This document shows, piece after piece, positions 24,144-29,219 of a stretch of 38,206 nt of DNA. The notes below the pieces were generated by a model that saw only the letters and a list, made by a program, of their open reading frames with translations, was not told the origin of the DNA and did not search any database. The stretch's first letter is position 1; every line of letters starts with the position of its first letter. Both the position numbers and the translations under genes were made by a program. Origin of the DNA: Kofleriaceae bacterium (lineage in GTDB: Bacteria; Myxococcota_A; Polyangia; Haliangiales; Haliangiaceae). The DNA is taken from the NCBI GenBank assembly GCA_018058095.1, contig JAGPCO010000076.1, forward strand, positions 1-38,206, read 5' to 3'.

Positions 24144-24160
24144 CAGGCAGGTCAAGATCG

Positions 24161-24233
<73 letters not shown>

Positions 24234-24414: not shown

Positions 24415-25260
24415 TCAGCAGCCGGACAACGTGACGAAGACCAGGGTCTGCGGGACCACCGCCAGGCCGTTGACCGCGCCGCAGGTCGTGGCGCCCCGGG
24501 CGCCGCCCAGGACGAAGGGGGCGGCGCTGGCCGGCGCGACCAGCGCGGTGCCGGTGACGCCGGAGGCCGCGAGAGGGCTGGCCAGGCTCAGGCCCTGGTA
24601 CGGCGTCGGCGCGTCGAAGTACCAGGCGTACGGCGGGGTGAGGTTGGACGCCGGCGGGGTCCCATCGATGAGGGCGGTCACCCCGCTGGCGGCGGCGCCG
24701 GCGCTGGTGAAGGCCACCAGGTAGCCGGTGTCGCGGGCCAGGTTCTGGCCGGGCAGCCAGGTCGCCGTCGAGGCGGTGGTCACCAGCTCGAGCGGCTCGG
24801 TCATCGCCGAGGTGCTGGCTGGCATCAGGTGGAGGACCCGCCGGTAGGTGCTGCCGGTGTCGGATACCTCGAGGCCAACCCGAGCGCCGGCGACGTCCGC
24901 GACCTGATAGCGCCCACAGTCGTCGATGCTGCCCACGACGGGCGTGGGCGACATGGCGGCGAACAGGGCGTCGGCGTCGACGCCGCGCACGGCCAGCGCA
25001 CACGGCCCCTCGGTCCCGGTGCAGGCCAGGCCGGTCGGCCGCGCTACTCGCAGCGGCGCCCCGGTTCCGGCGTCGACCAGCTGGCCACACACCGAGGTCC
25101 CTGCCCCGCTGCTCGGGCACGCCGGCGCCGCCGCACACACGGCGTTGGGGTCGGCGTCGACGCCGCCCTGGCTGGTGGCGTCGAGCCCCAGCAGCTGGGC
25201 GCACCCGGGTCCGAGCGCGAGCCCCACCAGGACGAGCAGGCGCGCGCCCACGCCGGTCAT
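24415..25260 (-). CDS. Exported lipoprotein with carboxypeptidase-regulatory-like region
   Basis: 281 aa from the ATG at 25258-25260. The signal peptide MTGVGARLLVLVGLALGPGC has a lipobox-like LGPGC (Cys20). It is followed by AQLLGLDA, a start I associate with myxobacterial lipoproteins. A segment starting VCGQLVDAGTGAPLRVARP and continuing to DDCGRYQVADVAGARVGL looks like a carboxypeptidase-regulatory beta-sandwich. The rest is beta-rich and ends in LVFVTLSGC. Its ATG overlaps the stop of the HMA gene (ATGA), so translation is probably coupled to that gene. An in-frame upstream ATG at 25492-25494 would add 78 Arg-rich residues and bury the signal peptide, so I reject it. Confidence 0.82.
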   Translation of the reverse strand: MTGVGARLLVLVGLALGPGCAQLLGLDATSQGGVDADPNAVCAAAPACPSSGAGTSVCGQLVDAGTGAPLRVARPTGLACTGTEGPCALAVRGVDADALFAAMSPTPVVGSIDDCGRYQVADVAGARVGLEVSDTGSTYRRVLHLMPASTSAMTEPLELVTTASTATWLPGQNLARDTGYLVAFTSAGAAASGVTALIDGTPPASNLTPPYAWYFDAPTPYQGLSLASPLAASGVTGTALVAPASAAPFVLGGARGATTCGAVNGLAVVPQTLVFVTLSGC

Positions 25261-25661
25261 GGCGGCAGCACCTGGGTGGTGGCCCGGTCGGGCCAGCCCG
25301 GCCGCGCCAGCCATGGGTCGTAGCCGACCGCGCGCAACGCGGCCAGCATCGGCGCGGTGGCCGCCTTGGGCGGGCCGAGCGCGGCGTCGTACGAGACCCA
25401 GATGGACTCGGTGTCGACGTCGACGCCGACCTCGTACACCCCCGGCACCTTGGCGAGCGCGGACCGCACTCGTTTGGGGCACTCCTCCGGTCATGTCACG
25501 CCGAGCGCCTTGAGGGTGACCTGGACCAGCTCGGCCGGGCGTGGCCGCACCGCCGGCGCGGCGGCCACGTCGGCGCGGTCACAACCGCTCGACCAGGCGG
25601 CCCCGGCCAGGACCAGCGGCAGCGCGGCCGCCAGCGCCAGCGGGCGCCACGCCGCCCTCAC
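25257..25661 (-). CDS. Candidate selenoprotein: HMA-domain lipoprotein with in-frame UGA (Sec57)
   Basis: One frame of 135 codons from GTG 25659-25661 to TGA 25257-25259 with one internal TGA at codon 57 (25491-25493). Residues 1-27 look like a lipoprotein signal (hydrophobic LALAAALPLVLAGAAWSSGC, Cys27). After a linker comes a full HMA fold: strand LVQVTLKALGVT, then U57-PEE-C61, helix PKRVRSALAKVPGV, strands YEVGVDVDTE and SIWVSYDA, helix PMLAALRAVG, and YDPWLA. HMA proteins have Cys where UGA stands (GMTC-type loop). The start overlaps the upstream stop (GTGA) and the stop overlaps the next ATG (ATGA), so the whole frame behaves as one gene. A SECIS-like hairpin follows the UGA. I infer an exported selenocysteine metal-binding or thiol-redox protein. 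Alternatives are a nonsense mutation of a Cys codon or a read error. Ordinary annotation would call only 25257-25469 from a GTG, losing the signal, strand 1 and both ligands. Confidence 0.7.
25455..25471 (-). promoter_or_regulatory. Bacterial SECIS-like hairpin
   Basis: On the transcribed strand GAGUGC-GGUCC-GCGCUC forms a 6-bp stem (one G-U pair) with a 5-nt apical loop starting GG. The loop begins 25 nt after the in-frame UGA at 25491-25493. Known bacterial SECIS elements have a short stem, a G in the first two loop positions and a UGA-to-loop distance of roughly 16-37 nt; the fdhF loop is GGUCU. I see no clear equivalent of the bulged U of fdhF. Confidence 0.55.
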
Positions 25662-28501
25662 CGCCGTCGTCCCCGTCGCGGCGCCGGCTCGGGCGCGGCG
25701 CCGTCCGCCTTGGGCAGCCCCAGCGCGGCCGGCAGCTGCTCGTCGATCAGCGCGGCGACGCGGGACAGCTCGGCCAGGCTGGGTGAGGAGGTCGCGCTGG
25801 CGCTGGCCTGCAGGCGCTTGATGATCTCGGTCGCGGCCGTGCGATCGGCGTCCTTGGCGCCCTTCACGCTGACCATCGCCTCGGCGTAGGCCAGCTCGAC
25901 CAGCGGCACCATCGGCGCCTTGTCGCGCTCGAGCAGGCCGAACAGCTCGAGCGCCCCGGCCGCGTCGCCCTTGGCCATGGCCAGCTTGCCCTGCAGCCCG
26001 CGCGCTGGCAGGAAGCCTGGGTTGGCGGCCACCGCCTTGTCGAGCTCGGCCGCCGCGGGCTCGAGTTCACCGGCGGTGATCATCAGCTGGGCCAGGGTCG
26101 TGTGGGTCCGGTACTCGACCGGGTTGGGCGCGTCGTCGCTGATGCCGTCGATGGCCTGGGCCAGCTTCTTGCGGGCCTCGGCCGGGTCGCCGCCGGTGGC
26201 CACCAGGGCGGCGCCGAGCGCGTGCTGGCCCAGCTTGGACTTGGTCCGGCGCGCCACCTTCTCGAGAGCCGCGAACGCGCTGTCGCGGTCCTTGCCCGAG
26301 CTCGCGGCCAGCACCGCCGCCCACTCGCGCATGACCTGGGCCTCGAGGTTCTCGGGCGCGCGGGTGATGAGCTCGTCGGCCTCGGCCAGCGCGCCCTGCG
26401 CCTTGCCGGCGTCGATGAGGCCCTGCACGCGGATGAGGCGGGCCCGCACGCCCTCGACCTTGCTGGCGATGTCGACCGCCTTGTCGGGCACGCCGCCGGC
26501 GAGGTTGAGGCCGGCCTCGACCAGCAGCACGAGCGGATCGGGCTCGGCGTCCTTGAACGACTTGATGGTGGCGCGGGCCTTGGCCGAGGCCTCGAGGCGC
26601 CCGCGCAGGTACTGGGCCATGGCCAGGCGGGCCATGAAGCGCGACTCGGGCAGGTCGCCGCGCTCGGCCGGGGCGCTGGCCGCGGCCATCGACTTGAGGA
26701 ACTCGGCGTAGTCCTCGGTGGTGTTCTGCGCCAGCGCCAGCGCCAGGTTGCGGTAGGCCGCCACCCGCGGGCCGAGCGGCTTGTCGAGCTTGGCCGACAG
26801 GTCGTCGACGGCGGCGGTGGTGTCGACGCCACTCTCGGCCCGCCCCAGGGCCCGGCCGAGCAGGGCCAGCGGGTGGTCCTTCTCCGCGGCCAGGACCTCG
26901 TCGTACAGCTTGATCGCCTCGCCCAGCTGGCCCTCGTCCACCAGCAGATCGGCGCGGTCGATGACGGCCACCAGCAGGCCGCTACCGCCGTCGGTGGCGG
27001 CAGCGCCGGCCTGCTTGAGCGAGGCGTGCGCCGCCTTGCGCTCGCCGGCGGCGAGCTGGGCCCGGGCCTTGAGCCAGCGCGCCCACTGGTCGCCGTCATC
27101 GGCGGTGAGCAGGGCGTCGAGCGCGGTCACCACCTCGGCCAGCGCGGTGGTCGGCGCCTCGCGCGTCGGCAGCCGGGCCAGCTCGATGGCGCTCCTGCCG
27201 ATCGCGATCTCGTGGTAGCCCTTCTGCGTCGGCTTCTTGATGTCGCGCGCGGCCTGCTTGCAGGCGGTGTCGACGGTGTCCGGATCGGTGCCGTACAGCA
27301 GCGCGCGCAGGCCGGCGGTCTCGCACACGTAGGCGTAGGTCAGCGCGCTCCGCTTGTCGGTCTGGATCGCGACCTTGAGGTCCTGCAGCGCGCCGTCGAG
27401 GCCGACCCACGACGCGGTGACGATCTTCTCCTTGGCCGACTTCTGCAGGCGGGCCACCTTCTCGGCCTTGACCTTGTTCGAGTACCACCAGTACCCGCCG
27501 CCGCCGCCGACGCCGAGGAACAGCAGCACGAAGAGAAAGATGAACATCCGGGTGGTCGACCGACCCCAGCGCCGATCCGGCTTGAGGTCGTAGTCGAGCT
27601 CGGGCACACGCACGCCGCCGATGTCGAGCAGGCCGCCGGTGAGCAGATCGTTGAGGTAGTTCTCGCCGACCGCGGCCGACCGGCGCAGCGACGGCGCGGC
27701 GGCGTTCTTCTCGCGGGTGTTGGACACCACCCGCGGCCGCACCACCTCCCCCGAGGGAGCAAGCGGCGGCGCCAGGCTGGCCGGCTTGCTGCGAGCGGGC
27801 GCCGGCGCCGGCGCGGGGGCACGGGCCGGCGGGCGGGCCGGCGCCGCGGCCGGGCTGCTGGCCAGCATCGCCGGGCCCGGCCCGGCGTGGTCGTCGAACG
27901 GGTTGACCGCGGTCGGGTCGGCGTCGATCGGCGCCGGCTGGGCGGCGGCGCGCATCGACTGCCGGGGTGGTGCGGGCGCCGCGGTGCGGGTCGGGGCCGG
28001 GGCCGCGGCCGGCGGCCGGGCCCGGGCATCCTGGCGCGGGCTGATGGGCGACGGGATCGGCGGCGGCGGGTCGAGCTGCTGCCCGGCGCGAGCCCGCCGC
28101 AACAGGGTCAACACCGTGCTGCTGGTCGGGTCGAGGTTCTGCGCGTGCTGCAGGACCGGGAGGGCCCGCTCGTAGTCGGACCGGCGCAGCAGCACCTCGC
28201 CCAGCAGGGCGAAGCCGCCGCGCGAGTTGCGGTCGACCTTGACCACCCGCAGCAGCTCGCCCTGCGCCTCTTTCCACTGGTGCAGCGCGCAGTGGGCGCG
28301 GGCCAGCATGACCCGGCCCTCCGAGCTGTTCGGGTCGGCCGACAGGCCGGTGGCGCCGACCCGGAGCGCGTCCTGGGGACGGCCCAGGGCCAGGTACGCG
28401 TCACCGAGGTCGATGAAGGCCGGGGAGGCCGGATCACGCCGGACCAGATCCTCGAGCTCCTCGATCTCCTGCGCAGACGGGCGGCGATCGGATTCGACCA
28501 T
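25658..28501 (-). CDS. Large TPR protein with a single central membrane segment
   Basis: 947 aa from the ATG at 28499-28501, which has AAAGG about 8 nt upstream. The cytoplasmic N-terminus has TPR repeats at about 10-145 (AFIDLGDAYLALGRPQDALR, GRVMLARAHCALHQWKEAQG). A Pro/Ala-rich linker runs to about 265, and one membrane helix is at about 319-341 (FIFLFVLLFLGVGGGGGYWW). A long extracytoplasmic set of helical repeats fills about 345-925, and the tail is basic (PAPRRGRRR). Such proteins usually scaffold envelope complexes, but I do not recognise this one. An in-frame extension to 28897 is Arg/Ala-rich shadow. Its stop overlaps the GTG start of the HMA gene by 4 nt, and it leads this three-gene operon. 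Confidence 0.9.
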   Translation of the reverse strand: MVESDRRPSAQEIEELEDLVRRDPASPAFIDLGDAYLALGRPQDALRVGATGLSADPNSSEGRVMLARAHCALHQWKEAQGELLRVVKVDRNSRGGFALLGEVLLRRSDYERALPVLQHAQNLDPTSSTVLTLLRRARAGQQLDPPPPIPSPISPRQDARARPPAAAPAPTRTAAPAPPRQSMRAAAQPAPIDADPTAVNPFDDHAGPGPAMLASSPAAAPARPPARAPAPAPAPARSKPASLAPPLAPSGEVVRPRVVSNTREKNAAAPSLRRSAAVGENYLNDLLTGGLLDIGGVRVPELDYDLKPDRRWGRSTTRMFIFLFVLLFLGVGGGGGYWWYSNKVKAEKVARLQKSAKEKIVTASWVGLDGALQDLKVAIQTDKRSALTYAYVCETAGLRALLYGTDPDTVDTACKQAARDIKKPTQKGYHEIAIGRSAIELARLPTREAPTTALAEVVTALDALLTADDGDQWARWLKARAQLAAGERKAAHASLKQAGAAATDGGSGLLVAVIDRADLLVDEGQLGEAIKLYDEVLAAEKDHPLALLGRALGRAESGVDTTAAVDDLSAKLDKPLGPRVAAYRNLALALAQNTTEDYAEFLKSMAAASAPAERGDLPESRFMARLAMAQYLRGRLEASAKARATIKSFKDAEPDPLVLLVEAGLNLAGGVPDKAVDIASKVEGVRARLIRVQGLIDAGKAQGALAEADELITRAPENLEAQVMREWAAVLAASSGKDRDSAFAALEKVARRTKSKLGQHALGAALVATGGDPAEARKKLAQAIDGISDDAPNPVEYRTHTTLAQLMITAGELEPAAAELDKAVAANPGFLPARGLQGKLAMAKGDAAGALELFGLLERDKAPMVPLVELAYAEAMVSVKGAKDADRTAATEIIKRLQASASATSSPSLAELSRVAALIDEQLPAALGLPKADGAAPEPAPRRGRRR

Positions 28502-28517
28502 GCGGAAGCCTTTCGAG

Positions 28518-28583: not shown

Positions 28584-29219
28584 TCACGGCGCGCACGCGG
28601 CGCGGGCGGAAAAGCGCTGCCCGGGGCACGATCCCGAGGCGCGGAAGGTCTGCCCGTCGCAGCCGCAATAGCTGCGCAGATCACGCGTGCAGCCGCGTGC
28701 ACGCGCCGCGCACGTGCCGGGCTGATCGGACCCGCAGCCCTGCCCTTCACAAACGCCGCTGTCACACTCGCTGGCGGCCAGACATGGCGCACCGACCGGC
28801 CGCGCGGTGGCGGCGGTGCTGGTGCACGCGCCCCGGCTGGCGAAGCGGGCGCCCGGGCACGAGCCCGACGCCGAGAAGGTCGCGCCGTCGCAGCCACAGT
28901 AGGCCTGGATGTCCATCGTGCAGGCGCGCATCCGGCTCACACAGCGGCCGGCGCCGTCGCCACAGCCCTGGCCCTCGCACACCCCGCTGGTGCAGTCGGC
29001 CGCGGCGGTGCAGGCCGCCCCGTCGGGCTGGCCCGGGCCCGGCGCCTCGCTCGCCGAGCCGGCGCCGACGGACGAGCCGGCGCCCGAGCCTGGCCCCGGC
29101 TCGGTCGGCGGGGGCAGGTAGGTGGAGCCGCCCGACATCGGCGGCGGCGGCGGCGCGGTCGACACCGGGCAGCCGACCAGCGCGAGCAGCAAGAGCACCG
29201 GCACGATCGAGCGCGACAT
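28584..29219 (-). CDS. Cys-rich lipoprotein with two tandem Kazal-like modules
   Basis: 211 aa. The signal peptide MSRSIVPVLLLLALVGC has a canonical lipobox (LVGC, Cys17). A Pro/Gly/Ser linker leads to two tandem ~67-residue modules, each with C-x(5)-C-x(3)-VCEGQGC, a run of further cysteines, YCGCDG-TF-ASGSCPG-RF and a final Cys. The CGCDGxTF core resembles Kazal-type domains, known as protease inhibitors. The modules are closely similar, so the duplication looks recent. All cysteines are paired in number between copies, consistent with disulfides on the cell surface. It is transcribed away from aroC, 48 bp from its start. Confidence 0.85.
   Translation of the reverse strand: MSRSIVPVLLLLALVGCPVSTAPPPPPMSGGSTYLPPPTEPGPGSGAGSSVGAGSASEAPGPGQPDGAACTAAADCTSGVCEGQGCGDGAGRCVSRMRACTMDIQAYCGCDGATFSASGSCPGARFASRGACTSTAATARPVGAPCLAASECDSGVCEGQGCGSDQPGTCAARARGCTRDLRSYCGCDGQTFRASGSCPGQRFSARAACAP

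Follow-up and report, generated by a model that had tools for sequence, protein, structure and literature searches.

A probable selenocysteine-containing HMA-domain lipoprotein with a U-x3-C metal loop in a member of the Kofleriaceae

The window analyzed here, i.e., a stretch of 38,206 nucleotides from a soil-type bacterium of the family Kofleriaceae, harbours on its minus strand (25257–25661) a gene for a probable HMA-domain lipoprotein of 134 aa, the single in-frame UGA of which (codon 57, 25491–25493) is predicted, with a probability of about 0.9, to be translated as selenocysteine (Sec). Most likely, the product is anchored in the cell envelope and binds a soft metal through a selenolate and a thiolate ligand. 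Ordinary annotation would miss or truncate this HMA gene. The Kofleriaceae belong to the Myxococcota and were once classed in the Deltaproteobacteria.

Gene frame and domain architecture

The original prediction had given these coordinates without a strand; the position holds, but the gene is located on the minus strand, the plus-strand reading of 25257–25661 being nonsense. Translation from 25661 to 25257 yields 134 codons plus a terminal TGA and confirms that the frame is interrupted solely by the UGA at codon 57 (...LVQVTLKALGVT-U-PEECPKRVRSALAKVPGVYEVGVDVDTESIWVSYD...). As had been proposed, this UGA occupies the position of the first metal ligand and the second ligand Cys (codon 61, TGC, 25479–25481) is kept, resulting in the loop motif G-V-T-U-P-E-E-C (U57-x3-C61). 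Both predicted overlaps with the neighbouring genes are also present: at the 5' end, the GTG start (25661) forms a GTGA with the stop codon of the upstream TPR gene (25658–25660), and at the 3' end, the terminal TGA shares an ATGA with the start codon of the next gene (ATG at 25260). Since G+C amounts to ~77 % in this stretch and a run of 77 codons is open by chance ~40 % of the time at such composition, the openness of the frame is in itself little proof. The case therefore rests on homology across the UGA, with the joined protein being matched in 27 of the 30 genomes of the family (orthologues ~40–60 % identical across the UGA), and on the match to Pfam HMA (PF00403; 31.6 bits against a gathering cut-off of 24.8, 2.3e-7).

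An AlphaFold2 model built with 18 orthologues displays a beta-alpha-beta-beta-alpha-beta domain of the HMA/ferredoxin-like type (residues 45–121; 25260–25529 on the minus strand, including a short C-terminal tail) with a pLDDT of about 97 over residues 41–120. The best PDB matches of the model obtained with Foldseek are MerP (1osd, E 1.1e-5), HMA7, ATP7B-type domains and CopZ; profile matches to PDB sequences agree, the alignment revealing that the metal loop is longer by one residue (CxxxC versus CxxC). The canonical GMTCxxC spacing, which is usual rather than obligatory for HMA domains, is thus replaced by U/CxxxC in the whole group. The N-terminus represents a putative signal peptide (25581–25661, minus strand) with a probable lipobox Cys27. 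This residue is invariant in the orthologues, many of which possess canonical boxes such as LVTGC or ALAGC, and the SSGC box of the window's own protein is weaker than these. The N-terminal signal and the invariant Cys27 suggest that the protein is probably a lipid-anchored lipoprotein.

If the UGA were a true stop, the distal part would be a separate gene or unused, and an out-of-frame ATG that overlaps the UGA does indeed open a 359-aa ORF (24415–25494) extending into the next lipoprotein gene. This ORF was rejected as a candidate, since its ATG exists only because T56 is encoded by ACA here (ACG or ACC in the other UGA orthologues) and the G+C content by codon position 3' of the UGA (0.74/0.57/0.95) keeps to the HMA frame. 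Conservation likewise follows the HMA frame, and at 25260 the next gene possesses a start codon and a signal-like N-terminus of its own. Termination at codon 57 is accordingly considered very unlikely.

UGA and Cys at the codon 57 column

The orthologues carry either UGA or Cys exactly at the codon 57 column, as expected from the original prediction. Seven genomes of the sister genus g6 contain exactly one TGA within the match, located at this column (GMT-U-xExC), whereas TGC is found in 13 genomes of g1, the genus to which the window belongs (GM(Y/N/T/D)-C-xE(S/T)CP). The second Cys (C61 column) is invariant in both groups, and only in the UxxxU relatives described below is it replaced by UGA. 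The two groups also share the locus order, i.e., aroC, often a Cys-rich protein, the TPR gene and the HMA gene. All named relatives are Kofleriaceae, Myxococcales or Deltaproteobacteria metagenome-assembled genomes, and the named-genome scan, conducted with family-specific search patterns, retrieved no organism outside these types. A phylum-wide search with A1, in which few candidates were scored per genome, missed known matches (e.g., G020), and absence elsewhere is therefore not to be read from it.

The presence of TGC in all 13 other g1 orthologues examined could indicate that the window simply contains a usual Cys-type HMA lipoprotein gene of the genus, in which TGC was turned into TGA by a sequencing or assembly error or by a recent nonsense mutation. 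Against this, seven independent assemblies of the sister genus also show UGA at this column, and the frame 3' of the UGA as well as the overlap junctions are intact. Furthermore, the window's copy branches outside the Cys clade: in the domain tree, it is sister to a 12-member Cys clade of its genus (support 91/96; Cys clade 98/95), and the other Sec copies lie outside this grouping. The root and several forks of the tree are unsure, and one Cys copy (L034) is placed elsewhere on a long branch. Considering also the loop codon discussed below, an error or fresh mutation is highly improbable.

In the closest pair of UGA orthologues, the coding region 3' of the UGA has a dN of 0.026 and a dS of 0.32, which points to purifying selection on this region; for the window's copy compared to the other UGA copies, dN/dS is not clearly below 1 by the simple method applied. 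UGA at the codon 57 column also occurs in more distant relatives from the order, and Sec is therefore plausibly the older state, with Cys representing a replacement within the window's genus.

Selenocysteine machinery

The host genome (G000, 97 % complete) encodes the full set of components for Sec insertion sought in order to assess the prediction that UGA is read as Sec: a tRNA-Sec (on C62) scoring 72.3 bits, i.e., above the cut-off, with the anticodon UCA according to ARAGORN, as well as selA (531.4 bits), selB (307.7 bits) and selD (296.9 bits). Together with the UGA/Cys column of the orthologues, these genes support the proposed decoding. The selD gene itself (L089, on C27 at nt about 1531) contains one in-frame UGA, at ARGGG-U-AAKI, which is the active-site Cys/Sec position of SelD; the genome therefore harbours one or more further Sec genes, including one from a long-established family. 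tRNA-Sec and selA are likewise retained in the Cys-type relatives. In one relative (G009), two tRNA-Sec matches of equal score are found 7 kb apart on a single contig (C163, at 3030 and 10027), possibly due to a duplication or an assembly repeat.

Reading of the UGA as another amino acid, e.g., tryptophan, by a change of the genetic code would equally account for the open frame, but for nothing further. UGA serves as stop codon in the HMA gene and its upstream neighbour, the tRNA-Trp has the normal CCA anticodon, the orthologues contain Cys and never Trp, and the genome possesses a full Sec system. A code change can hence be regarded as practically negligible. In the preferred scheme of Sec insertion, the SelA/B/C/D system of the host would read codon 57 as Sec, with a SECIS hairpin located a short distance 3' of the UGA directing the insertion.

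Candidate SECIS hairpin

Folding of the coding strand revealed a candidate upper hairpin of a bacterial SECIS (CGAGUGC-GGUCC-GCGCUCG; 25454–25472, minus strand), the apical loop of which opens 25 nt after the UGA and starts with GG, a dinucleotide invariant only in the UGA orthologues. The last two bases of the Arg codon at position +9 form the start of this loop; this codon is CGG in 8/8 UGA genes versus CGC or CGT in 13/13 Cys genes (Fisher p 4.9e-6 with rows taken as independent, a value overstated by shared ancestry), while no more than roughly one in three of the remaining Arg codons of these UGA genes is CGG. Helix cells are paired to 87.5 % in the eight UGA orthologues as opposed to 64.8 % in the Cys orthologues. 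In stability, the hairpin does not exceed shuffled sequence (z -0.25), and double-sided covariation in the helix is absent among the rows of the orthologue alignment; because of this, the candidate SECIS is based on the position of the hairpin and on the loop-codon contrast, the latter of which argues for a genuine element. Searches with Rfam over 22.5–27 kb of the window yielded no SECIS family, but only a tRNA-Trp and one chance hit. At the loop codon, the window's copy has CGG like the UGA group rather than the CGC of its Cys relatives, which makes it less likely that a Cys gene was misread in sequencing.

Relatives with two UGA codons

Genus g4 of the same family contains HMA proteins with GMT-U-xxx-U-PP (L080, L081, L085, L086 and L088) as well as one with U-xxx-C (L087), and further relatives from other families of the order show GMD-U-PRG-U-PP (L083) and GMT-U-RSG-C (L082). 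From the joint occurrence of UxxxU and UxxxC relatives it follows that either or both ligand positions can be UGA. Several UxxxU HMA copies are present per genome in genus g4. The paired UGAs of L080, L081, L083, L085, L086 and L088 stand four codons apart, and both could be served by one hairpin.

Possible metal or redox function of the U-x3-C pair

According to the proposed mechanism, the product would be an envelope lipoprotein with one HMA domain, in which U-x3-C replaces C-x3-C in the metal loop, and a soft metal ion, e.g., Cu(I) or Hg(II), would be held by a selenolate and a thiolate in place of the two thiolates used by MerP and CopZ. The main rival to this metal role assumes that Sec is inserted and that the protein is a thiol oxidoreductase or peroxide sensor of the envelope, with the U-x3-C pair as its redox (selenenylsulfide) centre. 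Such a function would be in line with the published view that most known prokaryotic selenoproteins are redox proteins (PMC9312934), with the spacer of three residues compared to two in canonical HMA loops, and with the lack of a metal transporter gene among the neighbours examined. On the other hand, fold and GMT loop are those of metallochaperones, and each of the two positions is independently capable of carrying Sec (UxxxU), as would be anticipated for two equal ligands. The redox function is therefore regarded as possible but rather unlikely, and metal binding is favoured, with reasonable though not high confidence, as the role of the Sec-containing HMA protein.

Relation to known selenoproteins

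The original prediction had described the protein as a candidate new selenoprotein, while pointing out that HMA/MerP-type Sec families had already been reported. The latter statement proved correct: among the entries of the GOS survey are a MerP selenoprotein and another one given as putative mercuric transport protein (PMC2398784), and a review from 2026, in which the latter appears as PF02411, lists MerT-type, NF041115 'UxxU' metal-binding and P-type ATPase selenoproteins (PMC13188914). Novelty is thus restricted to the branch: Sec-containing HMA proteins are already known as a kind, whereas the UxxxC/UxxxU lipoprotein is a new branch scoring below the cut-offs of NF041115, TIGR02052 and NF045683.

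The GOS entries resemble the window's protein in being mercury-transport-type selenoproteins, MerP itself being an HMA protein. The MerP model TIGR02052 matches the window's protein at 1.2e-7, but with 32.1 bits against a cut-off of 92.55, and in contrast to the MerP selenoproteins the present protein probably is a lipoprotein, has a spacer of three residues and is encoded beside a TPR gene with no mer genes around. NF041115 (UxxU_metal_bind) likewise represents a small HMA-like protein, listed with UxxU and two Sec (PMC13188914), and differs from the UxxxC spacing, single Sec and N-terminal lipoprotein part found here. The window's protein attains 25.2 bits and a UxxxU relative 73.6 bits against the NF041115 cut-off of 95, which was reached in 0/284 genomes of the phylum. 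The MerT/CopZ fusion-like heavy metal transport selenoprotein family NF045683 shares an HMA-like domain, to which the match of the window's protein is limited (24.7 bits, cut-off 375). Structures of MerP and CopZ (1osd, 1afi, 2qif) have the same ferredoxin-like fold (TM-score by target 0.75–0.85) and a GMTC metal loop, but with two Cys in a CxxC arrangement rather than the U/C-x3-C of the window's group.

The words UxxxC, UxxxU, lipoprotein and Myxococc- are absent from the text of the review (PMC13188914), and the window's protein is not by name among the nine families of deep-Sep, three of which are hypothetical proteins without a name (PMC12013277). Literature searches for Myxococcota, UxxxU or HMA-domain selenoproteins, with subscription papers mostly outside their scope, returned nothing relevant. 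On balance, it appears somewhat more probable than not that these HMA proteins of the envelope form a selenoprotein branch of Kofleriaceae and related families that had not been listed before, with Sec at either or both ligands of a CxxxC soft-metal site (UxxxC, UxxxU), Sec seemingly being the older state and Cys replacing it in one genus despite retention of the Sec machinery.

Most known bacterial Sec residues are thought to be catalytic redox residues; here, Sec would replace a metal ligand in a metallochaperone fold. The occurrence of U-x3-C, U-x3-U and C-x3-C relatives within one order renders the benefit of selenium to the metal site directly testable, and the alternation of Sec and Cys at one syntenic locus, together with the synonymous switch of the loop codon, would provide a clean natural case for gain or loss of a SECIS.

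Gene neighbourhood

The TPR protein gene (25658–28504, minus strand; Pfam TPR) lies next to the HMA gene in almost every named locus; this neighbour is conserved but uninformative with respect to function, and none of the neighbouring genes examined points to a metal. Directly downstream of the HMA gene, a probable lipoprotein without Pfam match is encoded at 24415–25260 (minus strand), which was not found by tblastn in the flanks of the named relatives. A protein with two similar Cys-rich repeats (28584–29219, minus strand), also lacking a Pfam match, is conserved in several relatives, where its gene lies between aroC and the TPR gene. The tRNA-Trp (CCA) is located at 24160–24233, beside secE and nusG on the minus strand and shortly after the HMA gene cluster.
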